From Gemmata sp. (GTDB lineage Bacteria; Planctomycetota; Planctomycetia; Gemmatales; Gemmataceae), in contig JANWYJ010000001.1 in NCBI GenBank assembly GCA_025055115.1, positions 1 through 50,001 of the forward strand: DNA of 50,001 nt, in the 5' to 3' direction. Below, one piece after another: positions 7,164 through 46,478 of the stretch; position 1 is the stretch's first letter; every line of letters starts with the position of its first letter. Under the pieces are notes generated by a model that was not told the DNA's origin, did not search any database, and saw nothing but the letters and a program-made list of their open reading frames with translations. The position numbers and the translations under genes were made by a program.

Positions 7164-8108
7164 TCAACGGACGACACTTCGGAAATACGCGAACAAATCG
7201 GCGACATCCTGGTGGCTGAGTTCTTTCTCCAGACCCTCGGGCATCAGGGATCGGCCAGTTGAGCGGAGTGACGCCACGTTTGAGCGCAGAATGACCTCCT
7301 CTTTCCCATCAGCTAAGCGCAGTGTGAGGCTGGTGGGTGTTTCAGTAGCAATGACGCCTTGGAGCACGCGTTCATCGCTGGTCACAACGGTGTAAGCGAC
7401 ATAGCGGGGATCAACCTCGCGATTGGGGTCGAAGATGGCGACCAACAGATCGTCGCCGGATTTGTTGGGCAGAGTGGCGACGAGGTTGGCGCCCACATCG
7501 TTGCCGAAACCGTCGAGCCTGTGGCAGGCCGCACAGGTTTTGCGGAACACCGTCTGGCCTTTGGCCGGGTCGCCCTTGAGTTCCAAGGCGGGGAAGTAGG
7601 TTTTCACGACCTTGGCCCGATCGGTATCGGTGCGTTGGAACACAGCCACAGCTTTGGCGCGGATCGTCGCGTTGGGATGGTTTTGCAGCTGTTGAATCTG
7701 CGCCGAAGTGAACTCGTGGACACTCACTTTCTTCGCTTCCACCGCGGCCAAAAGCGTCCGCACCCGCTCGGGGCGACTGATTAGCGCGGCCAGAACTTCT
7801 GCGCGAATGGTGGGGCCGTAGCCGGACCAGTTTTTCAGCAGCCGCTCCCCCACGGAGGGATCGGTGTGAGTCGAAAGCATTTGGATGATGGCGATTTGCA
7901 CCTCCGGCGGGGTATGGGGGGTGAGCTGATCGGTGAGTGCCGCGGCGGTTTCAAAAGGACCGTAAGCCAACCAATTCGCAGCGCGAACCCGGGCGGCGGG
8001 GGTGGCGTTCGCATCGCGGACCACGGTGGCCGCTTGATCGAAGCGTGTCCGCAACTGAGCCATGACGGCGGCAGCCTCTGTAGGCGGTTGGCTCCACCAC
8101 CGCGGCAA
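7164..8108 (-). pseudogene. HEAT/cytochrome c module severed from the upstream fusion protein by an in-frame TAG
   Basis: This open stretch continues the 8139-11390 gene in the same frame. Exactly one stop codon (TAG, 8139-8141) and ten further sense codons separate them. It carries HEAT-like helical repeats (about 1-170), then a PVC-type cytochrome c domain with heme motif CAACH (codons at 7521-7535) and the distal methionine region ending in GRSLMPEGLEKELSHQDVADLFAYF, typical of the C-terminus of PVC dehydrogenases. The first possible initiator here is a TTG at 8108 with no ribosome-binding site, so independent translation is unlikely. Without this part the upstream protein lacks its heme domain. 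Either a recent nonsense mutation, readthrough, or a sequencing error. Confidence 0.75.
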
Positions 8109-8138
8109 TGGTAACGGGGACCCGCGCAGCCCCTGCCC

Positions 8139-11100
8139 CTAGCCATCGAGCAACAGTGGGTCGGCCCCGTTGGCCACGCGCTGCAATACTCGTGTGATTT
8201 GTTGAACGTCTCCTTGAGCACCAATCATAGTGGCCAGGCGGGATAGCACCGCGGCATTCGGCTTTTCCTTGGCCAAGAGCGTGTCGAGCAGTTCCCCAGC
8301 GCAGGCCCGTGCGGAACTGAGCGCGGCCGTGACGGTCCATGGGTCGCGGGCGTCCTTCTCGACAATAGCCGCAAGAACCGCGGCGGCTTCGGCGGGTGGC
8401 AACGCGCCGGCGGTCAAGGCCAGTTGAAACCGTACGCGTGCCGCGGGGTCATCGACCATCTTCGCCACGAGCTTGCGCAGTTCCGCTGACTCGGTGAAGT
8501 ACGCTTCGGCCAGCCGCAACGCTTGCTCGCGGTTGCCCACTTGGGGGTCGGCCAGTGCCGCGTGCAACCAGCGGGGAACCTCGGCCCGGTTGAGATGGTG
8601 CAGTGTCCAGAGCAGATGGCTGAGGCCGGGTGTACCCCGGGCTGCCTCGAAGCGCGCCGGAGTCACGAGCGACCGATCCGCTTCACCTCGTTCCAACAAC
8701 AACCGCTGCGCAGTGAGGCGGCGCCAGGAATTCGCACTGAGCAATTCCCCAGCGAGTTGGTCGGCGCTGAGGCGGTGGAAATCCGGCATTTTCCCCGGGC
8801 GGAAATCCTTGGGAGCAATCCGCCAAATCCGGCCACGACCACGGCTTTCTAGGTTCAATTGTTGCTTGATGTCGTCTGGCAGCGACAGCGGCGTTTCGAT
8901 GACTTCGCGGTAGAAGTCGAGAACGTACATCGCCCCATCCGGGCCTATACTCAAATGCACCGGGCGGAACCAATTGTCCGTCGAAGCGAGGAATTCGCGA
9001 TCGTCATAGGCCCGCACGGCTTTGAAGATCGAACCATTGTCGCGGAGAAGTTCCCGGTGAATGAGGTTGTTGGCCGGGCAGCAGACAAAATTGTTTCCAC
9101 GAAATTCCTCGCCGAACAGATCGGCGGTGTAAATGAGCGGACTGCAGGCGGAGGTGAAGTAGCCACCGGGAACCAGTTCGGTCGACGGGAAACGTTGGGC
9201 ATCGGCCGAACCGGCACGGCGGGTGGTCCGCTCGACGCGCCACGGCTCGAAATCGCTGATGCGGAAGACACGTGCCGCCGCCCCGTGTTCGGCAATATCC
9301 ACCGTGACGGCGGCAACCGCCAAGTAGGGATTGCGCTTCAAATAATGGTCGGGCAGCACAATCTGCCGGATGTGCTGGCTGTTGGTTGCCGTGAACCAAC
9401 GGCCGTAATCGTCGGCTGTCAGGCCGTACTGGCCGCCAGAGCTGGTCGGTTCGATGCTGCCGGGCACATCGGGTCGGAAGCGAAAACCGCGATTGCGGAG
9501 CACCAGGGGTGGCATCTCTTTCTTCTGAGGCGAGGTGATCGTACCACCGTCGTTGCCCGCAATCCCGTACAGCCAGCCATCCAACCCCCACTGGAGGCTG
9601 TTGACCATCTGTTGAATGTTTCTCAGTTCAAAGCCGGTGTAGAGAACAGTGGTTTTGTCGGCTTGGCCATCGCCAGTGGTATCTTCCAGAAAGAGGATAT
9701 CCGGGGCGACCGCGACGATGACACCGTTTTTGTAAGGGGCAATGCCCATGGGGAAGCGTAAGCCTTTGGCGAAGGTTGTTGCCGTTTCAAAGTAGCCGTC
9801 GCCGTCCCGGTCTTCGAGGCACTGGATGCGACCGCGTGTCTCCACACCTGTACCCACACCACCATTGGGGTACCCGCGCATCTCGCAGACAAACATTCGC
9901 CCGCGGGCATCGAAGCACATCGCCACCGGATCGACCACCGCCGGCTCACAGGCGACCAACTCGATGCGGAAACGTTCATCGAGGCGGAAGGTTTCTTTCT
10001 CCTCGTGGGGGGTTTTGGGTCCGGGGGCTTTCTTCAGCGGAGCCACCGCGTGGGCCAGTTGCTTCACTTTGGCGATGATGGCATCTTCAATCGTCGGGCT
10101 GTATTGGCCGGGCATCCCGTAGTAAATTTGCGACGAATCGGCCTCGTAACCGCCTTCTTTCAACACCCGGGCCGACGGAATGTACGACATGACATCATTC
10201 GCGTAAGCCATCACCCACAAGGTCCGGCTTGTCGGCAACTCCTTTTTGAGCCGGATGTGATAGTCGACGACGACTTCGCCCCCCAGGGCGATCAGCAGCA
10301 CCTGATCGCCGATCGCCCAGGCTTGGATGGGATAGTGGGGGTAATGGTCCGTGATTTGGCCGCGGGTTTCGAGTTCTTGGAGCAGCCGTTCGGCCCGTTT
10401 TTGCACCGCGCGGTTTTTGCTGAGCAGGTCGGCACGAAGTTGTTCTTTGGTGGGCAGTTGATCGAATTTCAAGGCGATGGTTTCGTAGCGGGCCGCGAAG
10501 CGCCCCTGAATGGGCTTGGCGTCTTTCATCGCTGCCAGAACAGCATTGGCGAGTTCCTGACCATACTGCTGAGCGTGTTCGACTTGGCCGCGTGGCAACG
10601 GGTTGGCATCGCCACCGCAGCCCGCCCAGAACATCGCCGTAGTACCTGGTCGGGCTTTCTCCAGGGCGATCTGCGCAAAGCCGGCGTAGTCGCCACACCA
10701 TTGGTAGAAGCTGAGCGTGGTATTATGACACGCATAGCCGAACACCAGCGCCAGCGGTTGGCCAGCCCGTGTTTCCACCACCAGCACCGGAACAGTGTGT
10801 TCGACTGGCCCCGCTGGATTGCGCCCGTTGATGATGCCCTTGGGCGTCGGTTCGCGACGGTTGACGGCGAAGGTCGCCTTCCCCGCACCGTGTTTGAGGG
10901 CCACGGGTTGCAGGTTCTTGAGGGCAGCCCCAATCAGCGCGATCAGGTCGCGTTCGAGTTTTCGGGTGTAAGCAATGACTTTCTCGGCCTCCTCTTTCGA
11001 CATGGGGTACATGTCGAAGAGATTTTCGCGTAATACAGGGCCGCAGTGCGTGTGCGAGGCACTGAGAATCAGCGCTTCGCGCGGAATGCCAAATTGTTTT

Positions 11101-11390
11101 TCCACGGCAGTGGCAACAGCTTCACCCAACGAACGCGGAATGCCAATGAGGTCGGTCGTGACCAACACGAGGCGCTTGCCGGTAGCATCTTCCAGGCACA
11201 GGGCTTTGGCGTACAGATCGTGGAGTTTGCCTTCGGCGGGTTTGGTGCGGGCGGCATAGCCGGCCATCCAGATGTTTTCGCTGGGGGTGATGACTTGCGT
11301 GGCCACAGCCGCTTTGAAGGTCGGTTCGTCCGCGGCGTTCACAGTGGTGACCGCCATGAGACCAACGATGCAGACGGAGAGTGGTTTCAC
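8139..11390 (-). CDS. Ceramidase-like / PVC-type membrane-bound dehydrogenase fusion, truncated by in-frame TAG
   Basis: Order of domains: signal peptide (residues 1-19), neutral/alkaline ceramidase-like N-terminal domain (about 25-430, with SASHTHCGP and YACHNTTLSF His motifs), PVC-type beta-propeller dehydrogenase (about 470-880, with FDARGRMFVCEMRGYP and DTTGDGQADKTT repeats), then HEAT repeats. The family normally ends in a cytochrome c domain, found here in frame beyond the TAG at 8139-8141. Residues on both sides of the stop read as one conserved stretch (LLLDG, stop, GQGLRG). Start is GTG 11390, overlapping the upstream gene's stop as GTGA, with AGGAGG upstream. An exported oxidative enzyme acting on amide- or sugar-bearing substrates is inferred. 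Confidence 0.8.
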   Translation of the reverse strand: MKPLSVCIVGLMAVTTVNAADEPTFKAAVATQVITPSENIWMAGYAARTKPAEGKLHDLYAKALCLEDATGKRLVLVTTDLIGIPRSLGEAVATAVEKQFGIPREALILSASHTHCGPVLRENLFDMYPMSKEEAEKVIAYTRKLERDLIALIGAALKNLQPVALKHGAGKATFAVNRREPTPKGIINGRNPAGPVEHTVPVLVVETRAGQPLALVFGYACHNTTLSFYQWCGDYAGFAQIALEKARPGTTAMFWAGCGGDANPLPRGQVEHAQQYGQELANAVLAAMKDAKPIQGRFAARYETIALKFDQLPTKEQLRADLLSKNRAVQKRAERLLQELETRGQITDHYPHYPIQAWAIGDQVLLIALGGEVVVDYHIRLKKELPTSRTLWVMAYANDVMSYIPSARVLKEGGYEADSSQIYYGMPGQYSPTIEDAIIAKVKQLAHAVAPLKKAPGPKTPHEEKETFRLDERFRIELVACEPAVVDPVAMCFDARGRMFVCEMRGYPNGGVGTGVETRGRIQCLEDRDGDGYFETATTFAKGLRFPMGIAPYKNGVIVAVAPDILFLEDTTGDGQADKTTVLYTGFELRNIQQMVNSLQWGLDGWLYGIAGNDGGTITSPQKKEMPPLVLRNRGFRFRPDVPGSIEPTSSGGQYGLTADDYGRWFTATNSQHIRQIVLPDHYLKRNPYLAVAAVTVDIAEHGAAARVFRISDFEPWRVERTTRRAGSADAQRFPSTELVPGGYFTSACSPLIYTADLFGEEFRGNNFVCCPANNLIHRELLRDNGSIFKAVRAYDDREFLASTDNWFRPVHLSIGPDGAMYVLDFYREVIETPLSLPDDIKQQLNLESRGRGRIWRIAPKDFRPGKMPDFHRLSADQLAGELLSANSWRRLTAQRLLLERGEADRSLVTPARFEAARGTPGLSHLLWTLHHLNRAEVPRWLHAALADPQVGNREQALRLAEAYFTESAELRKLVAKMVDDPAARVRFQLALTAGALPPAEAAAVLAAIVEKDARDPWTVTAALSSARACAGELLDTLLAKEKPNAAVLSRLATMIGAQGDVQQITRVLQRVANGADPLLLDG

Positions 11391-12694
11391 TTGGGGTCCT
11401 CCTGGGTATCCGCACGCACAAGTTGCCGCATAGCTCGGAGTAAAATGTCTTCGGATTCGGGGCCAACGAGGGCGACGGTGGGTTCATAGCCGCCTTCGAG
11501 ATAAGCTTTGGCGGTGGGAATGTAGCCGGGTCCATCGTCACCGTAGGCGGCGACCTGAACCACGGCATCCGGCCGCATCTTCTGCGCGGCCAGCTGGTAT
11601 TCGACGAACGCTTCTCCGGGCAGAAAAAGCGTCAGCACTTTATTGTGAAAGTCGAGACAGTTGACTTCAATCGGAATGTTGTGACGTTTTAACCAGGCGA
11701 GTTGGAAAGCCGCATTGTTGCGCTTGGCCGCCGAGGCTTTCGCATCGGCCAAGCTCTTGCGACTTTCCTCCTCCCCAAAGGAAGCCTCGTTGCGTGGCGG
11801 CAACTTCACCGGCTTGAAGCGCCAGGCAAAATCCCGGACCGCCTGGGTTTTCGTACTTTTCCATGCGGCCACCATGGCCGTATAGATGCGGTCGCGGAGG
11901 ATGGGTCGGTTTTCCTTGGCCCCATCGTTATACTTGCCCGCGGTGATATTGCCGCCACAACCGTTGAAGTAGACCTGGAAGATTTTCGTTTCGTCGTGAA
12001 ACTTTTGCCGGGCCAAGCCGCAGAAATCGGCGCTGACGCGGCCATCGCCATAATAGCTCATCGGGTGACAGGCGTAGAAGTGCAGAGCGGCCAGGGGTTT
12101 TTCGCCATCCCAGAAGCTGAGCGTGCGCAAGTAAGGGTCGATCAGCCCTTCAGGGGCTGCGCGGGCCTCGGGATTTTTCGTCGCGCTGGTGCGGACGAAT
12201 TTCACTTTGCCATCCTCGCCCAACACGCGACGGTTCGACGCCACTTGCTTCACCTCGGCCATCCCTGTGCCGATGTGCGTGAACTTCGCCGCGTGCATCA
12301 GCGACGCTTTAACAGCGGCGGCTGAGCGTTTGACACAATCCTGGTAAAACCGGATATCCAACGACGGCGGGGCCTTGGCCGCGTCAATCAGCTTCTGCGC
12401 TTCCAAATCCGCAAAGGGTGCATTATGAGGATGCACCGTATGCAACGAAACCCGCTCGGGTGTCGTGTGCGCCGCTTCCGCCAACGCTGCCCGCCACACG
12501 CGAAACGCCTCATTGCGAAGCCCCACCCAATCGACCGCGCAAAGAACCACCGGCTGGGCGGAGCCAAGTAACACCACGCCCAGTGCCTTCAGGGGGTCAT
12601 CGACTCCGCGAACCGGCATGATCCAGCCACCGCACAATGGGTGGTCTTCCGGCGGAGTCACATCACACTCGAAGGTAGCCAAATGAAGAGGCAT
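11387..12694 (-). CDS. Neutral/alkaline ceramidase-like secreted-type hydrolase domain protein
   Basis: This 435-residue protein is homologous to the N-terminal ceramidase-like module of the downstream fusion. It shows the same core motifs: ATFECDVTPP near the start, SLHTVHPHNAPF with the metal-site histidines near 105-113, and LHFYACHPMSYYGDG with a further His near 210. Such planctomycete proteins are annotated as neutral ceramidase homologues, but the true substrate is unknown. No signal peptide is obvious at the N-terminus (MPLHLATFECD), which differs from the downstream partner. The stop overlaps the next gene's start by 4 bp, indicating translational coupling and a shared function. Confidence 0.75.
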   Translation of the reverse strand: MPLHLATFECDVTPPEDHPLCGGWIMPVRGVDDPLKALGVVLLGSAQPVVLCAVDWVGLRNEAFRVWRAALAEAAHTTPERVSLHTVHPHNAPFADLEAQKLIDAAKAPPSLDIRFYQDCVKRSAAAVKASLMHAAKFTHIGTGMAEVKQVASNRRVLGEDGKVKFVRTSATKNPEARAAPEGLIDPYLRTLSFWDGEKPLAALHFYACHPMSYYGDGRVSADFCGLARQKFHDETKIFQVYFNGCGGNITAGKYNDGAKENRPILRDRIYTAMVAAWKSTKTQAVRDFAWRFKPVKLPPRNEASFGEEESRKSLADAKASAAKRNNAAFQLAWLKRHNIPIEVNCLDFHNKVLTLFLPGEAFVEYQLAAQKMRPDAVVQVAAYGDDGPGYIPTAKAYLEGGYEPTVALVGPESEDILLRAMRQLVRADTQEDPK

Positions 12695-12772: not shown

Positions 12773-13747
12773 TCAGTCTGCCTTTTTCTCGGTCGTCGCA
12801 GGAGTGTCGCGCCTGCGTGAAGCGATCGCGGGCAGATAACGCCATACCAGGGCCAACAGGATCAGCCCGCCGCCGGCGAGCATCCAGCCGTTCGGAGTAT
12901 CTTTGGCGGGAGTGATGAGGAAGGCCCAAAGAGGATTGAGTAGCGGTTCAATGAGGGTGATGATGGCGGCTTCTTGCGGTGTTGCAGTCCGCAAGCCGCG
13001 CGTAAAAAGCCAATACGGAAGCGCCATCTGGAAGCCACCAAAAACGGCCAACACGGCCAATTGGGCACCACTGGGTGTGCTCACCCAACGAATAAAGGCT
13101 TCTGGACCCTCGCTGACTACGATAAATAGCCCCAACGTGACCGCGGTGCCCAACAGATTCAACGCTACCAGCCAAGCCGGAGCAAACTGCCGCAACGCGC
13201 GCAAAAACAAGACGACCAGGGCATATACAACCCCACTGCCCAAACCCATCAACAAAAGCAGAATTTGCATGCGTTGCTCGGCTGCGGGGAGATCACGGGG
13301 CCAATTCCCGACAACGATGACCACAGCCCCAGCGACCCCAATGAGCACAGTCTGCCATCCGCGACGATCGGCCCGTTCCCCAAGAAAGACCACCGCCAGC
13401 ACAAAAACCCACAACGGCGCAGTGTTCTGCAAAAAAATAGCATTGGCGGCCGGTCCTAATCCCAAAGCCGACAGATACAGCCCACTCATCAAGGTGAAAG
13501 CCACCACCATGCCGGCCATCGCCGGCCGAAAGCGAATATCGGCGCGGCGAACCATCGCCAGCATCACCAAACCACCGAAAATGCCGCGATAAAAGGCAAT
13601 CAATAAGGGGCTGAGAGGTGGATCATCCAAGCCCAAACCCAGTGGTTCGATCAGCAAGCGCATGAACACGCTGCCGAGGCTCCACAACACGGCAGCGCCA
13701 ATCAAGCACAACCGTGCGGCGGCCACCGAGGGACTAGCAGCAAGCAT
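12773..13747 (-). CDS. EamA/DMT-superfamily transporter
   Basis: The 324-residue integral membrane protein has ten predicted helices in two EamA repeats of about 140 residues (first from residue 11, second from about 165). The pattern NAIFLQNTAPLWVFVLAVVFLGERADRRGW in repeat one is the usual end of an EamA unit, repeated as AAIITLIEPLLNPLWAF in repeat two. Family members export or import metabolites such as amino acids or nucleotide precursors; the substrate cannot be predicted. The cytoplasmic tail is Arg/Lys-rich. It is separated by 78 bp from the ceramidase-like gene downstream. Confidence 0.85.
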   Translation of the reverse strand: MLAASPSVAAARLCLIGAAVLWSLGSVFMRLLIEPLGLGLDDPPLSPLLIAFYRGIFGGLVMLAMVRRADIRFRPAMAGMVVAFTLMSGLYLSALGLGPAANAIFLQNTAPLWVFVLAVVFLGERADRRGWQTVLIGVAGAVVIVVGNWPRDLPAAEQRMQILLLLMGLGSGVVYALVVLFLRALRQFAPAWLVALNLLGTAVTLGLFIVVSEGPEAFIRWVSTPSGAQLAVLAVFGGFQMALPYWLFTRGLRTATPQEAAIITLIEPLLNPLWAFLITPAKDTPNGWMLAGGGLILLALVWRYLPAIASRRRDTPATTEKKAD

Positions 13748-21445: not shown

Positions 21446-21533
21446 GTGGGCCGGGATGTACGCGTAGCCGTCGGCTTGCGTGTTCATCAGTGGGCCGGGA
21501 TATACGCGTAGCCGTCGGCTTGCTTGTTCATCA
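21446..21533. repeat. 44-bp tandem duplication of the methyltransferase 3' end
   Basis: The unit at 21490-21533, encoding the terminal MNKQADGYAYIPAH, is repeated at 21446-21489 with two mismatches. In the extra copy the reading frame runs on without the stop (MNTQADGYAYIPAHEP), which creates a misleading upstream extension of the acetyltransferase frame. Confidence 0.9.
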
Positions 21534-22677
21534 CGGCGGTCAGGGCGGCGGCAACGATGCCCAATTCCGACGACACCGCGAGGGGATCGAAGCCGTTACG
21601 GGCCAGCGACTGCCCGCAAACGTAAATTTTGGCCCCGGCTTTCTTCAATTGGCGGATCAGATCGGCCTGGGGGTTGGCGCGGCCGAATTGTTTTTGGTAG
21701 GCCGCGTCGCTGAGGGCATATGGGGTCGTCGCGCCGTGCATAACAATGACGACGTCGATATCGGTCGGTTGGAGGCCGGCCTGACCGGCCAGATTGTAGA
21801 GCAGAGCGGCTCGCTCCAGGCCGGGAACGGGCTGGCCAGCCTCCTTGGCATCCGCCGTCACATCAAAAACCACCTTGCTGCCCTTGCGTGGCCCGTCGTC
21901 GCCGGGAACCGCAAACACCCCGCCGTAGCCGGCAATGACCGGAAAGCGTTTAGCTCCTGGGGATTTCTCCTTCTCTGCTGGCACTTTCTCAAAAACAACC
22001 ATGTAGTTTTCTTTCAACAAATCCTTGACCTCACGCACTAGTTTGAAACCCACTTCCTCAATTTCCTTGATGAAGACTTCTTGGCCAGCGCGAACATGGC
22101 CCAGGATGAAATCAGAACTTTTCCCCGGAATGCGGTGGAAGTCGATCAGCACCACCCGCCCGCCGGGTTTGAGGGCCTGGTGAATGCTCTGCATTGTCCG
22201 GTAGGGATATTCAAAGTGATGGTAGGTATCGCAGATGAACACCAGATCGACCGAGTGGGCGGGCAGTTCGGTTGAGGTCTCGGAACATTTCCAGGTTTTG
22301 ACATTGGTGATCTTCGCCTCCTGGCAGCTTTTCTGGATATGTTCGAGGAATTTTTCGGAAATGTCGACGGCGATCACCTGGCCTTGCGGCCCCACCGCCT
22401 TAGCGAACAACCGCGTGAACAGCCCGGTTCCGGCACCCACATCCGCCACCACCATGCCCGGCCGAACTTGGCACTCGGCGATGATCTTGTCGCGATTGGC
22501 ATACACTTCGCGGCTTTCGCCTTCAAAGGTTTTCACATACTTGGCAACATCCGGATTCTTAAAGGGATCGTTAATCCCCGGCTTGACGCTCTTCTCTTGA
22601 CCCCAAGAGCCAACGCTCAGCGTCAATGCAAAGAAACTGAACGCCAGGAAGTGGCGCGCCGCGGTACGAAGGGTCAT
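21487..22677 (-). CDS. Exported SAM-dependent methyltransferase fused to a DsrE-like domain
   Basis: The 396-residue protein starts with a hydrophobic signal or anchor (about 7-25, cleavage possible after SWG). A class I methyltransferase domain follows (about 40-235): motif I VADVGAGTGLF with GAGTG at 81-85, acidic loop VIAVDIS, and DTYHHFEYP. The C-terminal part (about 245-396: YGGVFAVPGDDGP, VVFDVTADAK, IDVVIVMHGATTPYAL, KIYVCGQSLARNGFD) looks like a DsrE/DsrF-like sulfur-relay fold, including a Cys in the usual active-site loop. Secreted methyltransferases are odd because SAM is cytoplasmic, so the segment may be a membrane anchor with inside orientation. It follows the three-heme dehydrogenase gene after an 80-bp gap. 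Confidence 0.7.
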   Translation of the reverse strand: MTLRTAARHFLAFSFFALTLSVGSWGQEKSVKPGINDPFKNPDVAKYVKTFEGESREVYANRDKIIAECQVRPGMVVADVGAGTGLFTRLFAKAVGPQGQVIAVDISEKFLEHIQKSCQEAKITNVKTWKCSETSTELPAHSVDLVFICDTYHHFEYPYRTMQSIHQALKPGGRVVLIDFHRIPGKSSDFILGHVRAGQEVFIKEIEEVGFKLVREVKDLLKENYMVVFEKVPAEKEKSPGAKRFPVIAGYGGVFAVPGDDGPRKGSKVVFDVTADAKEAGQPVPGLERAALLYNLAGQAGLQPTDIDVVIVMHGATTPYALSDAAYQKQFGRANPQADLIRQLKKAGAKIYVCGQSLARNGFDPLAVSSELGIVAAALTAVMNKQADGYAYIPAH

Positions 22678-30385: not shown

Positions 30386-30407
30386 GCCCGTGGTGGAGGC
30401 CGTAGGC
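30369..30407. repeat. 19-bp duplication of a gene tail with stop retained
   Basis: The gene end (30369-30387, stop TAA at 30383-30385) recurs at 30389-30407 with two changes. The extra copy keeps a stop in the equivalent frame (TAG at 30403-30405). Confidence 0.8.
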
Positions 30408-30804
30408 TCTCGATGCAGAAGAACGCCTGCAGGCGCGCATGGGCCTTTGGGGATGATTCAACCCGTGACGAGTTGATCCGTGGAAAGACCTGGGTGATCA
30501 GCGACCGGGAGTAGTCCGGGCCACAATGGGTGTCGAATGGCGCCGTTGGCCTCTGAGAATCAAGTGTTTTTACCTCTTAGAACCAAGTGTGTCGATGGTC
30601 CGTAGTTTGCAGAAGGTCGTGCGCGTGGTATCCTGCGAGGGAGGGAACCGACGCGCGGAAAAGTTCATCCGATCGTTCTTCCCGCGGATCGCCAGCGGCA
30701 TCCAACACGGCGGAGAGAGCTGAGGTTGGAAAAAGGCAACCGCCGAGAACTGAGATTGGAAAAAGGCAACCGCCGAGAACTGAGGTTGGAAAAAGGCCAT
30801 AGCC
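30408..30804. repeat. Intergenic region with 30-bp leader repeat before the TatD-like gene
   Basis: No gene is supported in the first 300 bp. At 30721-30750 and 30751-30780 two 30-bp units differ by one base, and a third partial unit (30781-30797) runs into the leader of the TatD-like gene. Each carries GGTTGGAAAAAGGC or the GATTGG variant, the likely ribosome-binding region (AAAAGG). Confidence 0.85.
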
Positions 30805-31665
30805 ATGAAGTACATCGATCCACACATTCACATGATCTCGCGGACCACCGACGATTACCAGCGGATGGCCTACGCCCAATGCGCGGCGATCAGTGAGCCG
30901 GCGTTCTGGGCCGGTTTCGATCGCGGGAGCGCGGCGGGGTTTCACGATTACTTCCGGCATCTGACCGAGTTTGAACCCAAACGGGCCGCCCAGTTCAACA
31001 TCCGCCATTACTCGTGGTTGTGTATCAATGCCAAGGAGGCCGAAAACGTCAGCTTGGCCCGGGAAGTGATCGCGATGATTCCCGAATTTCTCTCCCGGCC
31101 GACGGTCTTGGGTATTGGCGAAATCGGCCTGAACAAAAACACCCGCAACGAAGCGATCGTGTTTCAAGAGCATCTCGATTTGGCGGCCAAAACCAATGAG
31201 CTGATTCTCATTCACACACCCCATTTGGAAGACAAATACAAAGGCACGCGGATGATCATCGATATGCTCAAAAACGATCGCCGCATCCAGCCGCACCGCG
31301 TCTGCATCGACCATGTTGAAGAACACACCGTCAAGCTGGCGCTCGACAATGGCTTCTGGTGCGGTATGACTCTCTACCCCACCACCAAATGCACGCCGGC
31401 ACGGGCTTGCGACATCATCGAGATGGTCGGTACTGAACGGATTATGGCCAACTCCGCCGGAGACTGGGGCCGCTCCGACCCCCTGGCCATACCCGAACTG
31501 ATCCAGGAGATGAAACGGCGCGGCCACTCCGAACAGGACATCAAAAAAGTGGTCTACGACAATCCCCTCCACTTCTGGAAACAAGCCAACAACTGGCGGG
31601 ACTGGCCGCCGGAACCCAGCGTCAACGGCAGCGTGGAGGTCACGGCTGCCAAAGCCGGTTATTAA
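30805..31665 (+). CDS. TatD-family metal-dependent hydrolase, Ebo-cluster type
   Basis: The 286-residue TIM-barrel amidohydrolase shows IDPHIHM at the N-terminus (metal His 7 and 9), GIGEIGLNKN with a metal-ligand Glu, ILIHTPH and CIDHVEEHT with further histidines. The opening, DPHIHMISRTTDDYQRMA, and the EPAFWAGFDR region match the hydrolase of the conserved ebo gene cluster rather than DNA-exonuclease TatD (from memory of that family). The other ebo genes (UbiA-like prenyltransferase, dehydroquinate-synthase-like, TIM barrel) are not nearby, so it is an orphan here. The gene ends just before a strong hairpin. Confidence 0.8.
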   Translation: MKYIDPHIHMISRTTDDYQRMAYAQCAAISEPAFWAGFDRGSAAGFHDYFRHLTEFEPKRAAQFNIRHYSWLCINAKEAENVSLAREVIAMIPEFLSRPTVLGIGEIGLNKNTRNEAIVFQEHLDLAAKTNELILIHTPHLEDKYKGTRMIIDMLKNDRRIQPHRVCIDHVEEHTVKLALDNGFWCGMTLYPTTKCTPARACDIIEMVGTERIMANSAGDWGRSDPLAIPELIQEMKRRGHSEQDIKKVVYDNPLHFWKQANNWRDWPPEPSVNGSVEVTAAKAGY

Positions 31666-31688
31666 TCCCGCCTCCCAACGAGGCGGGA
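31666..31688. terminator. Perfect 9-bp hairpin after the TatD-like gene
   Basis: TCCCGCCTC pairs with GAGGCGGGA around a CCAAC loop, starting directly after the TAA stop. No T-tract follows on the plus strand, so it may act as an RNA 3'-end stabiliser or a Rho-assisted end rather than a classic intrinsic terminator. Confidence 0.6.
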
Positions 31689-31895
31689 GAGGAAGAACCA
31701 CTGGTTGATGCAGGTCACTGCAGCCAGCCGCTTATTCATCTCGCTTCTCCGGATCGGATCTGCAACCGGGTGGCGGCCCCGATTCACGGGCGCATCGGCT
31801 GGGTTGCTCGGCGTCCTCACCCTCTTTACAAAGGCCCTCAGGCTCACCCATAATGAGAAGCGAAAACGCCCCACCTCGAGCAAGGGCACTACGCG

Positions 31896-32426
31896 ATGGA
31901 TTGGAAACCGTTCTGGAAGATCATTGAAGACGCCTACCGGCCCGATCCCATCGAGCATTTTGAGGCCCTCAAAGACCGCCTCCGCGAACTGAAATGGCCG
32001 GAGTTGATCGAATTCCAAGCAAAATTCGACGAAGCGATCGCCTCGGCCAACCTCATCGACCTGTGGGGTGCGGCGTATCTGATCAACGGTGGCTGCTCCG
32101 ACGACGGCTTTCGGGATTTCCGCGTCTGGCTGGTTGGTCGCGGACGGCATGCCTATGAGCATGCGCTGAAAAACCCCGATTCACTCGCGGATATTCTCGA
32201 TGGTGAGCCGGTCGATGGTTTCGGACTCGATGCCGCAGCACTACGGGTGTACGAAGAAAAAACCGGTCTGAGCGATTTCTACGAACGGCTCGAACGAGCC
32301 GAACGCGACCTTCCCCCGCCGCCCCCCGAAGGTATCGACTGGGACTTTGAAGACGAAGCCGAAATGCGTAAACGCTTTCCGCGTCTCTGTCACCTGTACT
32401 TACCGCCACCCGAGGAAGAAAAGTAA
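31896..32426 (+). CDS. DUF4240 domain protein
   Basis: The 176-residue cytoplasmic protein begins MDWKPFWKIIEDA and contains ANLIDLWGAAYLINGGCSDDGFRDFRVWLVGRGRHAYEHAL (about 51-90), the core of the DUF4240 family, whose function is unknown. The C-terminus is acidic and Pro/Glu-rich. No strong ribosome-binding site precedes ATG 31896. It stands 230 bp after the TatD-like gene and its hairpin, so it is probably a separate unit. Confidence 0.8.
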   Translation: MDWKPFWKIIEDAYRPDPIEHFEALKDRLRELKWPELIEFQAKFDEAIASANLIDLWGAAYLINGGCSDDGFRDFRVWLVGRGRHAYEHALKNPDSLADILDGEPVDGFGLDAAALRVYEEKTGLSDFYERLERAERDLPPPPPEGIDWDFEDEAEMRKRFPRLCHLYLPPPEEEK

Positions 32427-32774
32427 CTCATCCAACCCAGTAATCCCACATGGTCCCTGCCGCTGTACACATTTCCGACATCTCGGCTACTCGCTCCCAC
32501 CATCATCGGCCAATACGGAACTTACCATAGCCCAGGTCATTCGCTGCTCCCGCCGATTCAGCAGGTCATTCGCTGCTCCCCCCGATTCAGTCAGACGACA
32601 GGCCAGGTCCGCATTTGTCCTTCGCACCAGGTCCGGACGGCTTATCCTTTTGGGGGATTTACTGGTGACAACAGCGTCATGTCCGCATTCGTCCTTCGCA
32701 CCAAATCACGACGGATCACATCAGGACTGGGTTAGTGCTAAGCTCCAATAACATTCCTCTGGTGGATTGTGCGT
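32427..32774. repeat. Intergenic region with 29-bp tandem duplication
   Basis: No gene is supported. Units at 32533-32561 and 32562-32590 differ at one base. A looser duplicate of about 17 bp (CGCATTTGTCCTTCGCACCA and CGCATTCGTCCTTCGCACCA) recurs at roughly 32611-32630 and 32683-32702. Confidence 0.75.
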
Positions 32775-34535
32775 ATGTCCGAAAATTCCGGTTTCACCAC
32801 AATTTCTCGCCCCCAGTCGGCTGAGCTGGCAGCCACGGTGGTTCGACCGGTCCCACCACGCCACGAAACTGCCCCTGGCCGTAACCCTCACACTGCGTCG
32901 AGTGTCTCGGCAGGTCCTTCGAGTGGTTCGCTCGCCTTTGCGGAGGAAACCCGCCGGCTGTTGCGTTCCCGGCTGATGGTGACACATGCGGCAATCGGGA
33001 TTGTGGCCGGGGGTGTGGCCTTGTTGAGCCTGATGGATGCCGCGCCGATTCCTGCCGAAGCGGGCATAGGCCCGTGGGTGGTCGGGTTGTCCTTAATCAT
33101 GTTCGGGCAGAGTCTGGCCGGTTGGCTGTTGCTTCTCCGGTATCCACAGGCATCGCTGGTGACGTTGCGGCGGGGCGAAATCATACAGTTCACCACGCTG
33201 GCCTTGGTCGGCGGTATGGCCCGCTTCATTGCCCTCACCACAGAACCCGCAGCGTCGTCGGACCCGCGTTTCCACGATGTGGTCTACCGCTTTGCCGCAG
33301 TCCTCACCAGTTATCCGCTGTTTTTTGCCATCATTCTTTATGGGGTTCTGATCCCCAACACACGCCGACGCAGCCTCACGGGGGTTGCGATTCTCTGTGC
33401 TGTACCGCTATTGGCCACGGGTTGGGCCGCCGTGGTCAATCCCCATGTCCGGGCAGAATTTGTGGAAATTCTGCCCACGACGGCATTTCCACTGTTTATG
33501 GCCAGTGTGATTGCCGTCTTCAGTGCTACACAGCAGGTTGCCTTGCAACGGGAAGCCTTCGAGGCGCACCGGGAAGCGCAACAACTCGGCTCGTATACAC
33601 TTCGCAAGCGGTTGGGTGAAGGGGGCATGGGGGAGGTTTGGCTTGCCGAACACCGGCTGTTGAAGCGGCCCTGTGCCATCAAGTTCATCCGGACCGACTT
33701 GGCGGCTCATGCCGCTACTGCCAGACGTTTCGAGCGCGAAGTCCGCGCAGTGACCGCCCTGACCCATTTCAACACCGTGCGCATCTTCGACTACGGCCAA
33801 AGCGACGACGGCAGTTTCTATTATGTGATGGAATATCTGGAAGGTCCGACACTCGACAAACTCGTCAAAGACTCTGGGCCGCTGGAGCCGGCCCGGGCCG
33901 TCTATCTGTTGCGGCAGTTGTGTGGCGCTTTGGCGGAAGCCCATGCCGCGGGGATGGTGCACCGCGACTTAAAACCCAGCAACGTTATCATTACCAGCCT
34001 CGGTGGCCAACGCGATGTGGTGAAGTTGCTCGATTTCGGTTTGGTGCAGGACCACAGCACCACCGCCAGTGACGATCGGCTCACCCAGGCTGGCACTGTT
34101 TTGGGAACCCCCAGTTACATGTGCCCCGAGCAAGCCGGGGGTGAACCAGTCGATGCCCGAGGCGACATTTACTGCTTGGGTTGTGTTGCGTTCTTCATGC
34201 TCTGCGGACGACCGCCATTCGAAGCGGCCTCCGCGGGGAAACTGATCAGCCAGCATTTGACGCAACCGGCCCCATCAGTGCACACTTTTCGCGCTGATGT
34301 GCCCACAGATTTAGCAGATGTTATCGCCAAGTGTCTCGCGAAGGAGCCGGAGGATCGCTATCAGACCGCTTCAGAACTTGAAGTGGCCCTCCTGGGCTGC
34401 ACATGCAGTGGGCAATGGAATGCCATGGTTGCCGCACAATGGTGGCAGAACCGAACCGCCCCGGTCGCTCCCCCTCGCTCTGGCTCAACGCTCATCCCCA
34501 GCGAAACCCTCGTTCGCCACGAATCCCTCCAGTGA
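32775..34535 (+). CDS. Ser/Thr protein kinase with N-terminal six-helix membrane domain
   Basis: The order is reversed relative to most bacterial Hanks kinases. A low-complexity N-terminus (1-50) is followed by six hydrophobic helices (about 72-92, 102-122, 138-157, 176-194, 203-220 and 234-252), a helical linker, then a cytoplasmic kinase domain (about 273-545). Kinase motifs are GEGGMGEVW near 281, Lys 303 (CAIKFI), HRDLKPSN with Asp 398, and DFG at 420-422, followed by GTPSYMCPEQ. It is likely active. The membrane domain may sense lipid or membrane state (inference); it resembles nothing I can name. ATG 32775 is preferred over GTG 32769. The tail LVRHESLQ is duplicated downstream two to three times. 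Confidence 0.88.
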   Translation: MSENSGFTTISRPQSAELAATVVRPVPPRHETAPGRNPHTASSVSAGPSSGSLAFAEETRRLLRSRLMVTHAAIGIVAGGVALLSLMDAAPIPAEAGIGPWVVGLSLIMFGQSLAGWLLLLRYPQASLVTLRRGEIIQFTTLALVGGMARFIALTTEPAASSDPRFHDVVYRFAAVLTSYPLFFAIILYGVLIPNTRRRSLTGVAILCAVPLLATGWAAVVNPHVRAEFVEILPTTAFPLFMASVIAVFSATQQVALQREAFEAHREAQQLGSYTLRKRLGEGGMGEVWLAEHRLLKRPCAIKFIRTDLAAHAATARRFEREVRAVTALTHFNTVRIFDYGQSDDGSFYYVMEYLEGPTLDKLVKDSGPLEPARAVYLLRQLCGALAEAHAAGMVHRDLKPSNVIITSLGGQRDVVKLLDFGLVQDHSTTASDDRLTQAGTVLGTPSYMCPEQAGGEPVDARGDIYCLGCVAFFMLCGRPPFEAASAGKLISQHLTQPAPSVHTFRADVPTDLADVIAKCLAKEPEDRYQTASELEVALLGCTCSGQWNAMVAAQWWQNRTAPVAPPRSGSTLIPSETLVRHESLQ

Positions 34536-34844
34536 CCGCCAGTCGCTAACGGCTTGATGGTTGGCCATAACGTGTATCAACTCGTTCGCCACGAATCCCT
34601 CCAGTGACCGCCAGTCGCCAACGGCTTGATGGTTGGCCATAACGTGTATCAACTCGTTCGCCACGAACCCCTCCAGTGACCGTCAGACGAGCTGCGTTGG
34701 TATACGACGATTAATCAACGAAACTCTCGTTCGCCACGAACCACGTCGCTGACCCACAAAGTGCGGTCTTCCACGGATCAAGACCTCGGCAGCTCTGCCC
34801 AAACGCCCCACGGATCAAGACCTCGGCAGGCCTGCCCAAACGCC
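34509..34844. repeat. 72-bp tail repeat array plus 37-bp tandem pair
   Basis: A 72-bp unit that begins with the kinase's last codons and stop (34509-34580) is followed directly by a copy with one mismatch (34581-34652), a partial third copy (34653-34686) and a short fourth (34725-34744). A separate 37-bp tandem pair lies at 34771-34807 and 34808-34844 with two mismatches. No gene is seen before tsaD at 34965. Confidence 0.92.
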
Positions 34845-34964
34845 GCCGGTTCTTCTCTAGTCAGTCAGCCATCAGCGATACGAAAACCATCTTCCGAAGA
34901 TGCCAAATCCACGCCGACAGGGGCCGCGGCCGTCGCTCCTTCACCCGGCTGCTACGATAAAAGC

Positions 34965-35978
34965 ATGACGTACTTTTTGGCGATCGAAACCTCCTGTGAC
35001 GAAACCGCAGCGGCCGTCTTTACCGACGAGTTGCAAGTGCTGGCCAATGTTGTCGCTTCCCAAAGCGATCTGCACGCCCGCTTTGGTGGAGTGGTGCCGG
35101 AAATCGCCAGCCGCGCGCATTTGCGGAACCTCTTGCCCGTCATCGACGAGGCCCTCCGGCGGGCCGGGATCGCTCTCAGCGACCTCGGTTGTGTCGCGGT
35201 TCACAATACGCCAGGATTGGTAGGGGCCTTGTTGGTGGGTGTGAGTGCCGCCAAAGCCTTGGCTTGGGGTTTGGGCGTTCCTCTCATTGCAGTCAACCAC
35301 ATCGCCAGTCATATTTTCGCCTGCCGATTGGCCGCCGGTCGGGACATCTTCCCCTGTGTCGGGTTGGTGGTCAGTGGCGGGCATACGGCATTGTTTCGTT
35401 GTGAAAGTGCCTTAGCGCTCGAATTGTTGGGCGGCACCCGCGACGATGCCGCTGGCGAAGCCTTCGACAAGGTCGCGGCGATCTTGGGGCTGGGCTTTCC
35501 GGGGGGACCGGCGGTCGAGCGCGAGGCGGCTCAGGGCGACGCCAAAGCCTACCACTTTCCGCGCACCTTCGCCGACGATGGCCGCTTGGAGTTCAGTTTC
35601 AGCGGACTGAAAACGGCCGTGATGTACGCCTGCTACGGGCAGGACGTGAAAAGAGCCGCCCCGCCTCCGCCCGGGCCGCAACGAGCCAATCTGGCCGCCA
35701 GTTTCCAAGCGGCCGTTGTCGATGTGTTGGTTCTCAAATGTAAGCAAGCTTTGCGAAAAACCGGGTTGAAACGCTTAGCCGTCGGCGGTGGGGTCAGCGC
35801 CAACCGCGCCCTGCGGGCCGCGCTGGACGCGATGTGCGCCAAAGAAGGCGCGGAGTTGTTCATTCCCCCTCTGGCGCTGTGCACCGACAACGCCGCGATG
35901 GCCGCCCTGGCCGTGGAGAAGTGGAAGCGCGGCCAGTTCGCCACCCTCGACCTCGACGCGGAGCCGAACTGGCTTTGA
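34965..35978 (+). CDS. tsaD: tRNA N6-threonylcarbamoyladenosine transferase TsaD
   Basis: TsaD transfers the threonylcarbamoyl group from TC-AMP to A37 of ANN-reading tRNAs, working with TsaB and TsaE. The 337-residue length is standard. Motifs: FLAIETSCDETAAAV at the start, the metal-binding HIASHIFAC (HxxxH near 107-111), VSGGHTALF, GGTRDDAAGEAFDKVAAILGLGFPGGP, FSFSGLKTAV, and the C-terminal LCTDNAAMAA carrying the metal Asp. ATG 34965 matches the usual N-terminus; longer in-frame extensions upstream run through repeat-containing intergenic DNA. No tsaB, tsaE or rimI gene is adjacent. Confidence 0.95.
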   Translation: MTYFLAIETSCDETAAAVFTDELQVLANVVASQSDLHARFGGVVPEIASRAHLRNLLPVIDEALRRAGIALSDLGCVAVHNTPGLVGALLVGVSAAKALAWGLGVPLIAVNHIASHIFACRLAAGRDIFPCVGLVVSGGHTALFRCESALALELLGGTRDDAAGEAFDKVAAILGLGFPGGPAVEREAAQGDAKAYHFPRTFADDGRLEFSFSGLKTAVMYACYGQDVKRAAPPPPGPQRANLAASFQAAVVDVLVLKCKQALRKTGLKRLAVGGGVSANRALRAALDAMCAKEGAELFIPPLALCTDNAAMAALAVEKWKRGQFATLDLDAEPNWL

Positions 35979-36266
35979 ACCTTCGCCCCAGCCGTGCCCC
36001 TGTGAAAGCATCATCCGTGTGAACACCCCACCGCACGCCCCCACAGATCGTAGCGACCCGCAATCCCCATCCCTCGCAGGGTTGGCGACCACGGCGAGCC
36101 GAGGCAGTGGCTCCGGGGCGAAGATGCCGCAAATGGCTCTTCTCTTCTTTTCACAACAAATGCACATTAACAACAAATGCACATCTGCGAGTTGAGGCAG
36201 TAGCCCCGGGGCGAAGATGCCAGGGCTGGTTCGCCGGGGGGTACCGGGGACTTCCGATCGGCACAG
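35979..36266. repeat. Intergenic region with dispersed and near-tandem repeats
   Basis: A 35-bp unit at 36094-36128 recurs at 36187-36221 with four changes, and between them a 15-bp unit (ACAACAAATGCACAT) occurs twice at 36153-36167 and 36170-36184. The nested arrangement suggests successive duplication events. No gene is supported. Confidence 0.75.
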
Positions 36267-36488
36267 CTACGCCTTCGCTTCCGCGGGGGCCGGCTGGGCC
36301 TTTGGGGCTGCTTGTTCTTTTTTGCGTTGTTCCGCTCGGGCTTTCCGCTCGGCTTCCATCTTCTGCACTTGCGCGTTCACAGCTTCGCGCTGCTCTTTGG
36401 GAAGATACGCTCCCGGCCCCAACCGAGCCTCGTACTTTTTCCGCCGTTTTTCACGTTTCTTGCGTTTTTCGCCTGCTGGATTTCCCAT
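36267..36488 (-). CDS. Small highly basic protein, unknown function
   Basis: The 73-residue product is extremely Lys/Arg-rich (GEKRKKREKRRKKYEARLGPG near the start). The middle is a long charged helix (KEQREAVNAQVQKMEAERKARAEQRKKEQ) and the end is Ala/Pro-rich. The composition suggests nucleic acid or ribosome association (inference). I do not recognise a named family. ATG 36488 is chosen because the start is followed at once by the basic helix; in-frame upstream sequence is Gly/Arg-rich noise in the 5' region. Confidence 0.55.
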   Translation of the reverse strand: MGNPAGEKRKKREKRRKKYEARLGPGAYLPKEQREAVNAQVQKMEAERKARAEQRKKEQAAPKAQPAPAEAKA

Positions 36489-36665
36489 AGTCGCTCCGTC
36501 ACTGTGTTGGAGTCGCAATTTCGTTAAATTAGTAGTTTCCTGGGGAACGTCGAGAGGATCGACCCAGCTGCCACCGCGCGTTGCGGACCCGCCCGTGCCG
36601 CCTTTGGGGCCAGCGATTCTCACTCCCGATGATTCCCCTCTTGGGCAGCAACAACCCCTCCCGCC

Positions 36666-37844
36666 ATGAACGGCGCGATCTTCCACCAACTGTTGACCGC
36701 CCACGGCCAAGCCGCCTTGGCCGCGGCCACGGCGCTGAATCCGTCGGAAGCGACGTTTCTGACGTGTTGGAAACAGCTGCGGAAACATTACCCCGACGAA
36801 CTCGCCAACGCCGCCGTGGAAACAGCAATACTACGAATTAAGGCCCGGACCAAATTTTCTTGTGCGGACCGAATGTATTTCACCCGCGAAGCTCTGGAAC
36901 AAGCCAGTAGTGAAGTGGTCGCCCAGCATCGGGCACGGCGATTGGCTCCGTACTGCCTGGTCGCGGACTTGTGCTGCGGCATCGGGAGTGACGCCTTGGC
37001 ATTCGCTGCGGCCGGAGCGATGGTGACCGCCATTGATTCTGACCCGTTGCGGGTCGCCATGACTGAAGCCAACGCCGCAGCCCTGGGTTATCACGAGCGC
37101 GTCCATGGGGTGGTTGGCGATGCCCGAACCGTTGCCTTGCCTGAAGTCCAGGCCGCCTTTGCAGACCCGGCCCGCCGAACGGATCGCCGCCGCTTTCTCG
37201 ACCCGGAGGATTACCTGCCGCCGCTCTCGGCGATTCGCGCGCGGTTTGCCCCGGACTTTCCGTTGGCGGTCAAAATCGCTCCGGGTGTGGATTGGTCGGA
37301 CCTGCCGCACCGGGATGCGGAAGTGGAATTTGTCTCGTGGGGGGGTGAATTGAAAGAGTGTGTGCTGTGGTTTGGTGCCGCGCGGCAGGTGGCCCGCCGT
37401 GCGACGTTACTTCCTTGTGGGGCACAACTTACGGCCAACGAACCCTGTCAACCGCGCCCGGTGGCCCCGATCGGGGCTGTGCTGTACGACCCCGACCCCG
37501 CCCTCACCCGAGCCGGGTTGGTCCACCAGCTGGCCGAACAATTGGAGGCGTTCCCCATCGATTCTTGCGGCCCATTGTTGTCGGCCCGGCAGCGGCAGCC
37601 AACACCGTGGGCGTCGGCCTATGGGGTCGAGCAGGTCATCCCCTTCCATCGACGGCACTTGGGCGAATACCTCCGTTCCCAGCAGGTGGGGCGAATCACA
37701 GTCATCAAACGCGGTTCCCTGGCGGACGCCGACGCGCTTGTTCGCTGCCTCCGCCTGCAAGGCTCGGAGCATCGGTGGGTGTTTCTGACCTATGCGAACC
37801 ACCAGCATGTGATGATCGTGTGTACGCACCTCAATTGCCATTGA
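36666..37844 (+). CDS. Class I SAM-dependent methyltransferase with THUMP-like C-terminal domain
   Basis: The 392-residue protein has an N-terminal helical region (1-90), then a Rossmann methyltransferase fold with motif I LVADLCCGIGSDALAFA near 97-113, acidic AIDSDPLRV, and motif IV ADPARRTDRRRF. The C-terminal half (about 240-392: GAVLYDPDPALTRAGLVHQLAEQL, YLRSQQVGRITVIKRG) fits the ferredoxin-like and THUMP-like domains found with this family. RNA is the probable substrate; no specific position can be assigned. No good ribosome-binding site precedes ATG 36666. Confidence 0.8.
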   Translation: MNGAIFHQLLTAHGQAALAAATALNPSEATFLTCWKQLRKHYPDELANAAVETAILRIKARTKFSCADRMYFTREALEQASSEVVAQHRARRLAPYCLVADLCCGIGSDALAFAAAGAMVTAIDSDPLRVAMTEANAAALGYHERVHGVVGDARTVALPEVQAAFADPARRTDRRRFLDPEDYLPPLSAIRARFAPDFPLAVKIAPGVDWSDLPHRDAEVEFVSWGGELKECVLWFGAARQVARRATLLPCGAQLTANEPCQPRPVAPIGAVLYDPDPALTRAGLVHQLAEQLEAFPIDSCGPLLSARQRQPTPWASAYGVEQVIPFHRRHLGEYLRSQQVGRITVIKRGSLADADALVRCLRLQGSEHRWVFLTYANHQHVMIVCTHLNCH

Positions 37845-37913
37845 CGCGCACCGGGCAGCGGGCCATATCGCCGTGGCTGAATTATCCTGGGACTTGGGGC
37901 TTGGAGGTCACTC

Positions 37914-38405
37914 ATGCAACGCGTCGCGATTCTCGCCGCCACACTGACGCTCACCGCGAGCGTCTCGGCAGATCCGCCCGCTGTTTCTGGAACTTCCGAT
38001 CTGAGCCAATTGCAAGGCTCCTGGAAGCCACTGCAATGCGAATATGAGGGACAACCGCAAATGCCCACGGAAGTGATGGACCAGATTCGTGCGGTCTTTG
38101 ATCGCAACGAGTATCATCTCTATTTCCGCGATTCCAAACAAAAAGACCGCGCCGGACAACCAGTGATCCTGCGCTTGGCGCACATGAACGTCACTTTGGA
38201 TGAAACGACTGTGCCGAAAACGATTGTTTTTGAGTTCCTCGATGGTCCGCTGAAAGGCACCAAGCGGCATGGCATCTACGAATTGGCGGGCAATCAATTG
38301 AAACTGTGCTATTGTGCCACCAACCGCCCCAAACCGGCGAAGTTTGAAGCCCCCGCGCAAAGCGGTTATTTTTTGGAGACGTGGGCGCGCCAGGAGAAAA
38401 AGTAG
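37914..38405 (+). CDS. Secreted TIGR03067-family protein
   Basis: The 163-residue protein has a signal peptide (1-19, ASVSA then DPP) and the TIGR03067 pattern: LSQLQGSWKPLQCEYEGQ at the start, a central strand-rich part, and GIYELAGNQLKLCYCATNRPKPAKFEA near the end. The family is expanded in planctomycetes, is lipocalin-like in appearance, and has no established function. GGAGG lies 7 bases before ATG 37914. The last three codons (AAAAAGTAG) are followed by a near copy ending in TAA. Confidence 0.85.
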   Translation: MQRVAILAATLTLTASVSADPPAVSGTSDLSQLQGSWKPLQCEYEGQPQMPTEVMDQIRAVFDRNEYHLYFRDSKQKDRAGQPVILRLAHMNVTLDETTVPKTIVFEFLDGPLKGTKRHGIYELAGNQLKLCYCATNRPKPAKFEAPAQSGYFLETWARQEKK

Positions 38406-38651
38406 AAAAAGTAAGGGTGGTGGTTGTGGTGGGTTCGGGCCGTGTCGGTACCGCACCGATGGGTTGTCCACCCACAGCACCAAAGAGAGCCGGCGGGGGT
38501 CGACCGCGGTCGTGGGCCGGGGTTTGTACAATTTCTTCACCGCGAACTCCCCGGCCAATCGGCCTGGTCAGGGAGACTCCGTCCGGGAGACCCGATACGG
38601 GAGACTTTGGCGGTCCGATAGCCCCCTAACGAACAGCGTACGCCGGCTGTC
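38406..38651. other. Intergenic region with a 9-bp tail duplication
   Basis: GAAAAAGTA at 38396-38404 is repeated at 38405-38413, giving a second stop (TAA) just after the gene's TAG. Otherwise I see no feature in the 246 bp before mutS2. Confidence 0.4.
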
Positions 38652-40589: not shown

Positions 40590-40664
40590 AAACACGCAAG
40601 CTCCTTCAGGACGGCCACAGCGACAGACCGAAACCGCCCTGCCGACTCAACAGCAGCTCCCCGT

Positions 40665-41366
40665 CTATCCCGCCGCAGAGGATGACGGGCCGGGCTGGAG
40701 GAACTCGGGCTTGACCCTCTCCAGGTAACGCACCAAGACACCCAGCATCAGACCTTCGATCACCACCACCGGGATATGAGCCAACAGAACCAATTTCGCC
40801 AGCATCTCCCAATCTTCTTTCCCACCCAACAACAAGACGAGAAAGTTCAGCAGCACACTGGCGCCAACCGCACCACCACCCAGTACCACCCCACGGGCGA
40901 ATGCCGGTACACCCAGGCGGCGTAATAGTGGATACGCCACCCCCGCGAGCAATGCCGGCACACCCACGATACACGCATTCACACCCAGTGTCGTCAGCCC
41001 ACCATGTTGCAACAACAAATACTGCAGCGTTAACCCGACCACAATCGCCAGCGGCGCTTGCCGCCCCAAAACGACGCCCACCAGGCCATTGAGGATCAGA
41101 TGCACACTCGTTGGCAGCGCCGCCAGGGGAATATGAATGCTCGAGCCCACAAAAAACGCCGCACTCAACACCCCGATCCGCGGAATGTCCTCTTCGCGGG
41201 TGTACCACATCGCCATAGCCACCAGTAGTATCGCGCCAATGAACCCGCCGGCAATCCAGCCATCGGCCAGAACCCCATCCGACAGATGAACGGCCCAGAG
41301 CGACCAACGCGATGTCACTGCGGCTGAACCTCCGACGGTCCCAAGCCCCAAGCTGAGGCCCGTCAT
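40665..41366 (-). CDS. CbiM/NikM-like ECF transporter substrate-binding membrane protein
   Basis: The 233-residue membrane protein (six to seven helices) matches CbiM: WAVHLSDGVLADGW at about 24-37, SSIHIPLAALPTSVHLILNGLVGVVLGRQAPLAI with the conserved HIP and HL, and LGVNACIVGVPALLAG. In classical CbiM/NikM the mature N-terminus is Met-His, and that His binds Co or Ni. Here the equivalent His follows a 25-residue extension and a GTT codon, so it cannot be residue 2. Metal specificity is open. The start overlaps the dehydrogenase stop by 4 bp (ATGA). No CbiN/Q/O genes are adjacent. Confidence 0.8.
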   Translation of the reverse strand: MTGLSLGLGTVGGSAAVTSRWSLWAVHLSDGVLADGWIAGGFIGAILLVAMAMWYTREEDIPRIGVLSAAFFVGSSIHIPLAALPTSVHLILNGLVGVVLGRQAPLAIVVGLTLQYLLLQHGGLTTLGVNACIVGVPALLAGVAYPLLRRLGVPAFARGVVLGGGAVGASVLLNFLVLLLGGKEDWEMLAKLVLLAHIPVVVIEGLMLGVLVRYLERVKPEFLQPGPSSSAAG

Positions 41367-44809: not shown

Positions 44810-44840
44810 GACTGACGCCTCGCGGGGGCAGGAAGAACCA

Positions 44841-44934
44841 ACGGCTAGAAAACCGCAGCTGAATTATTCAGTCAGCTCTTTCATCACTACGGCTGGAAAA
44901 CCACGGCCGAATTATTTAGTCAGCTCTTTCATCA
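44841..44934. repeat. 46-bp duplication of the SGNH hydrolase 3' end
   Basis: The gene's last codons with TAA (44889-44934) recur at 44841-44886 with five changes, separated by two bases. The extra copy keeps the frame and the stop (MKELTE then TAA, versus MKELTK then TAA). Confidence 0.9.
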
Positions 44935-45841: not shown

Positions 45842-46478
45842 AAGCGCCTCGCGGGTGAACGATGTTTCTCTTCAGGTTACACGAATGCGAAGACAGCGGC
45901 GAGTCGCTATCCCGAAGTCGCCGTTGCGGCCGCGTTGAACTTTCGGTTCGGCCCTGTCCCCGAAGGTCGTCAGTACAGATTTGCCCCTGACACAGATTCG
46001 CCCCTGATGTCGGCCGCCGGACCTACCGCGGCGTGGTTGTAGGGTCAGGTGGTCGTTGTGAGTAGCAGAATACGTGCTCTGAGGAGTTGCAAGAGAAATA
46101 CGCGCTCTGAGGAGTTGCAAAGGAACTGAAGAGTTGCCGATCAGGCGTCAGCAGGTCATCTGTCGCAGGAACAATAACCAGATCACTCGATGTTCTATGA
46201 CGATGGGTTGCTAGAGATAGCAGTATTACGGACGCTGCATCCGGATATTTCGCGGACAACAGGGGGGCGTGGTGACGCCGTCGGCGAGTGAGGTCTTGGG
46301 AAGCAATTCGTGAGAAAGCCCAACCTGTCGCTGCCGCCAGCCCCGCGGCGGGGGAGCTTTTGGTAGCCCGGCACGACCTTCGTCGCCCGGCACGACCTTC
46401 GTTGCCCAGCACGACCTTCGTCGCCCAGCACGATATCCTGGTGTGTTGTTCGCGTCGTCGTGGGGCGGCTGGGCTGGA
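45842..46478. repeat. Gene-free region with two repeat arrays
   Basis: The 637 bp between the SGNH and EVE genes hold no supported gene. A 28-bp tandem pair lies at 46069-46096 and 46097-46124 (three changes). A 19-bp unit (GCCCGGCACGACCTTCGTC and variants) is repeated at 46366-46384, 46385-46403 and 46404-46422 with a partial fourth copy. Confidence 0.8.

Follow-up and report, generated by a model that had tools for sequence, protein, structure and literature searches.

A lone in-frame TAG in a ceramidase-like, dehydrogenase and cytochrome c gene of a draft Gemmata genome: very probably a consensus error or a recent allele

Does a single stop codon inside a long, conserved reading frame signal recoding, gene loss or an ordinary cause? 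The question is raised by a minus-strand frame (7164-11390) in the 50,001-nucleotide stretch of Gemmata sp. DNA analyzed here (the window). The source genome is a draft with a size of 4.93 Mb and a completeness of 98%; it is split into 100 contigs, of which the window is contig 60. The frame runs open from a ceramidase-like region through a PVC-type dehydrogenase to a CxxCH cytochrome c, except for one TAG. The earlier note, made from the sequence of the window, had described this lone TAG as splitting a ceramidase/dehydrogenase/cytochrome c protein of 1409 combined codons, with conserved sequence continuing across the stop. All of this was borne out. The frame has 1407 sense codons, the TAG and a terminal TGA (7164-7166), the peptide around the TAG reads LLLDG-stop-GQGLRG, and the closest orthologue, in the relative G017, is an intact protein of 1409 aa that aligns end to end in one frame with 85% identity over the full length. 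Beyond the TAG, the two genes differ by 44, 34 and 141 changes at codon positions 1, 2 and 3. This codon-position bias, together with the TIGR02603 match, shows that the frame beyond the TAG is not open merely by chance. The features of the locus are collected in Table 1.

Table 1 Features of the interrupted frame and its surroundings (positions in the window).
Feature	Position	Strand	Remarks
Whole frame, interrupted once	7164..11390	-	GTG start, terminal TGA; G017 orthologue aligned end to end
In-frame TAG, codon 1084	8139..8141	-	Leu in same-genus relatives
Neutral/alkaline ceramidase-like N-terminal domain	10644..11285	-	PF04734, residues 36-249, 40.4 bits, cut-off 32.1
PVC-type dehydrogenase domain	8805..10010	-	PF23500 DUF7133, residues 461-862, 419.9 bits
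TIGR02604, within dehydrogenase domain	8805..9971	-	303.5 bits, cut-off 122.2
C-terminal heme-binding domain TIGR02603	7176..7574	-	Beyond stop; 120.3 bits, cut-off 68.15, E 5.3e-35
CAACH heme-attachment motif	7521..7535	-	Residues 1286-1290, beyond TAG
Cluster of three G runs	8121..8139	-	Starts at last base of TAG; G-run count
Upstream gene, divergent ceramidase-like protein	11387..12694	-	Overlaps start of frame 7164-11390

The three parts of the protein recognized in the earlier note were all matched by profiles. The N-terminal region passed the PF04734 cut-off, with only positions 13-232 of the 509 profile positions matched. Its match to the neutral ceramidase 4wgk was weak (E 0.0052), and the aligned stretch holds the HTH motif. 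The very N-terminus resembles a signal peptide, judged by eye. Beyond the TAG there was a HEAT_2 match just below the cut-off (26.4 vs 27.7 bits), followed by TIGR02603, which is thus not in the same open frame as TIGR02604; in intact relatives the two share one frame. The CxxCH domain sits beyond the TAG, so that truncation would remove the heme domain, as the earlier note had reasoned.

The frame shares four bases with the end of the upstream gene. Searches of Pfam and NCBIfam with this gene at E 0.001 gave no match, and it was 24% identical to the downstream ceramidase-like domain over 419 columns (E 9e-15), which makes it a distant relative of its neighbor's ceramidase-like domain, the two standing in tandem. 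Between 6900 and 12900 we found no excess of promoter-like sites (one, vs 1.5 in shuffles) and no more terminator-like sites than in shuffles (eight vs 6.9). The first 30 kb of the window are largely collinear with the G017 stretch C11:60000-159999, and from 30400 to 50001 no gene was the best match of the frames chosen from that stretch.

The codon at the site was compared across relatives. All 41 genomes searched (the own genome and 40 relatives) gave matches to the protein, many of them to parts of it or to distant paralogues. We fetched 24 relative loci, 23 of which cover the site of the TAG. None of the 23 had a stop there; 20 carried Leu, two Met and one Val. All 16 same-genus loci over the site had Leu, encoded by TTG in ten, including G017, and by CTG in six. 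Outside these 16, from 18 same-genus relatives, are G013, without a close match and hence without a locus, and L016, which ends short of the site. A locus on CALDUT010000011.1 is a 100% match to the protein of G017. Leu in the relatives, and the TTG codon of G017, support the one-base change from an ancestral Leu codon to TAG that had been proposed, and a stop common to the orthologues, which the earlier note had named as evidence against its reading, was not found among the loci covering the site.

A second set of 48 loci gave 13 matches over the site, none with a stop. Six of these were from genomes already in the 24-locus set. Three of the other seven (L083, L084 and L086) carry Leu, and the remaining four, distant at 30-35% identity and of little weight, align a gap (L089), Gly (L090) and Leu (L094 and L103). 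L022, from another genus, had four stops in its match, clustered between the ceramidase-like and dehydrogenase parts and therefore without bearing on the TAG site; the protein-search listing for L022 disagrees, giving a 1528-aa open frame and zero stops for both pieces. Thirteen of the 18 same-genus relatives have the ceramidase-like and PVC dehydrogenase/cytochrome parts matched in a single frame, and contig ends cut two more. In G005 and G009, the match at the best place began only at residue 449 or 450.

We conclude that this organism uses TAG as an ordinary stop. ARAGORN found no CUA anticodon in the loci covering the 53 Rfam tRNA matches of the genome. Release factor 1 is present (NF001859, 430.4 bits vs a cut-off of 400; TIGR00019 just below its cut-off, 418 vs 423). 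Comparison of 20 window genes with those of G017 showed two that end in TAG here; in the pairs 21487-22677 and 12773-13747, G017 ends in TAG and this genome in TGA. Across this genome, the stretches matched by TIGR02604 (23), PF07587 (31), PF00069 (62) and PF04734 (4), a total of 120 from four families, were free of internal stops; these stretches are domains rather than whole genes, some come from the same gene, and the interrupted gene itself accounts for at least two, before its TAG. The suppressor tRNA or recoding considered in the earlier note was thus not found, as far as the genome shows, nor were other in-frame TAGs in the 120 stretches. Beside the ordinary tRNA set, ARAGORN predicted two clusters, one of eight genes (L061, G000:C14:49336-50336) and one of four (L069, G000:C22:97011-97460). 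Several of these tRNAs score low in Rfam, and the only tRNA-Asn in the scanned loci sits in the L069 cluster. Both clusters may be part of a mobile element.

To date the stop, we calculated dN/dS against G017 by the Nei-Gojobori method (own script). The ratio was 0.088 before the TAG (1083 codons), 0.109 after it (324 codons) and 0.041 in the cytochrome part (residues 1261-1408), all three being rough because synonymous divergence from G017 is near 1. Changes were polarized with 11 more distant same-genus sequences. Before the TAG, 41 residues had changed on this lineage and 38 on that of G017 (75 unpolarized); after it, the numbers were 14 and 17 (26 unpolarized), with no excess on this lineage. 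There was one gap column before the TAG and none after. Constraint past the TAG similar to that before it, without excess changes on this lineage, means that the stop is either very recent or not real. We infer that selection has kept the heme part nearly all the time since the split from the G017 species.

Several explanations have to be weighed against these results. Read-through of the TAG, with the full protein made thanks to a suppressor tRNA, reassignment of TAG or leaky termination, appears very improbable. Purifying selection does persist beyond the stop, but a recent stop or an error explains this equally well, while the lack of a predicted CUA anticodon, the release factor, the TAG-terminated window genes and the stop-free family stretches all speak against it. 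A programmed readthrough would be expected to conserve the stop among orthologues, and it was found in none of the 23 loci; at the completeness of this genome, a tRNA could have been missed. A narrower form, in which a real TAG is passed often enough, with no dedicated suppressor tRNA involved, for the cytochrome domain to stay under selection, is rated as even less probable; it would yield a mixture of heme-free and heme-bearing forms. A stable split, with the part beyond the stop restarted and working as a separate cytochrome subunit, could draw on in-frame starts past the stop (TTG at 8108, giving 314 aa, and ATG at 8063). The restarted piece would begin inside repeats and, by eye, without a signal peptide, and c-type heme is attached outside the cytoplasm. 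With no stop at the site in the relatives covering it, the split is extremely improbable. We give an established, decaying pseudogene just as little credence: it has the in-frame stop in its favor, and against it dN/dS far below 1 on either side, no indel and no excess of lineage changes beyond the stop. The tRNA and release factor content, dN/dS and the codons of the relatives thus speak against all four of these: recoding, a suppressor tRNA, an old pseudogene and a split gene.

The two remaining explanations, a consensus error and a real recent allele, together very probably cover the case. We put at about even the chance that one base is wrong, a Leu codon reading TAG through a consensus error in a fragmented draft assembly; in the living population, the protein would then most likely be made whole. 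The lack of decay beyond the stop, in dN/dS, in lineage changes and in indels, agrees with an error, as do Leu in every same-genus locus over the site and the draft state of the assembly. Cooley and Wright (PMC11017572) describe many internal-stop pseudogenes in bacterial assemblies as artefacts that depend on platform and coverage. A G-run cluster starts at the TAG; on the coding strand, 47 of 4184 40-base windows had three or more runs of at least three G. The contigs of two relatives end near the same codon, in G004 (L017 start, G004:C165) 14 bases past it and in G015 (L016 start, G015:C416) about nine codons before it. Cluster and contig ends hint at a stretch that assembles badly, although the coincidence of the contig ends was spotted only afterwards and amounts to no more than a hint. 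Against an error, the assembly is not littered with stops: the 120 family stretches had none, and in the 20 gene pairs with G017 the interrupted gene was the only one with a stop inside the window gene, two other pairs having stops only in stretches before the start of the window gene. A real recent mutation also predicts the same lack of decay.

Somewhat short of even is the chance that the TAG is a nonsense mutation that really exists in the sampled population, as a very recent allele either fixed or still segregating. Its product would end after residue 1083, keeping the ceramidase-like and dehydrogenase domains and losing the rest, including the heme domain. One base separates the TAG from the Leu codon that the nearest orthologue has, decay is not expected if it is recent, and the stop-free family stretches give no evidence of a high error rate. 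On the other side, the lost part is under strong purifying selection, as the dN/dS of the cytochrome part shows, and such an allele is therefore unlikely to persist. No special cause has to be invoked for a single stop, since 404 of the 12663 possible single-base changes in the frame (3.2%) make stops. DNA folding at the site was unremarkable (none of five windows departed from the gene mean by more than about one standard deviation), which gives no sign of a strong hairpin as the cause. The evidence separates the two explanations poorly, and we lean slightly toward a wrong base rather than a real, very recent mutation. The observation itself is real, the reading of the earlier codon is supported and the cause is ordinary.

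The gene encodes a multidomain redox protein of an ordinary kind, probably an exported one. From family membership, the intact protein would probably be an exported enzyme with amidase-like and dehydrogenase-like parts, handing electrons on to the cytochrome c that it carries. Twelve TIGR02604 rows were individually above the cut-off in the genome, one of them the interrupted gene, and other copies of the dehydrogenase family could soften a loss. If real, the allele would be a naturally occurring form of a PVC-type dehydrogenase that has lost its heme; the function of this family is, to our knowledge, poorly known. However conspicuous, an in-frame stop in a draft genome does not have to imply recoding or loss of the gene, and the combination of ceramidase-like, PVC dehydrogenase and cytochrome c parts in one frame, recurrent in the genus, is a more interesting object than the stop. 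A literature search for neutral ceramidase together with Planctomycetes found nothing, and the phrase "PVC-type heme-binding" was not found among the matches listed.

Among known systems, the PVC-type heme-binding CxxCH proteins (TIGR02604 and TIGR02603) share with this protein a dehydrogenase-like domain and, C-terminal to it, a CxxCH domain. Here, by contrast, the frame also has a ceramidase-like domain at its N-terminus, which is true of many same-genus relatives as well, and this copy has one in-frame stop ahead of the heme domain. The likeness to neutral/alkaline ceramidase (PF04734) is one of sequence, consisting of the N-terminal score above the Pfam cut-off and of the HTH-motif stretch aligned with 4wgk; the difference is the limited part of the profile that is matched. 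With the internal-stop pseudogenes of draft assemblies (PMC11017572), the locus has in common that the gene is otherwise conserved, the genome a draft and the internal stop the only one.
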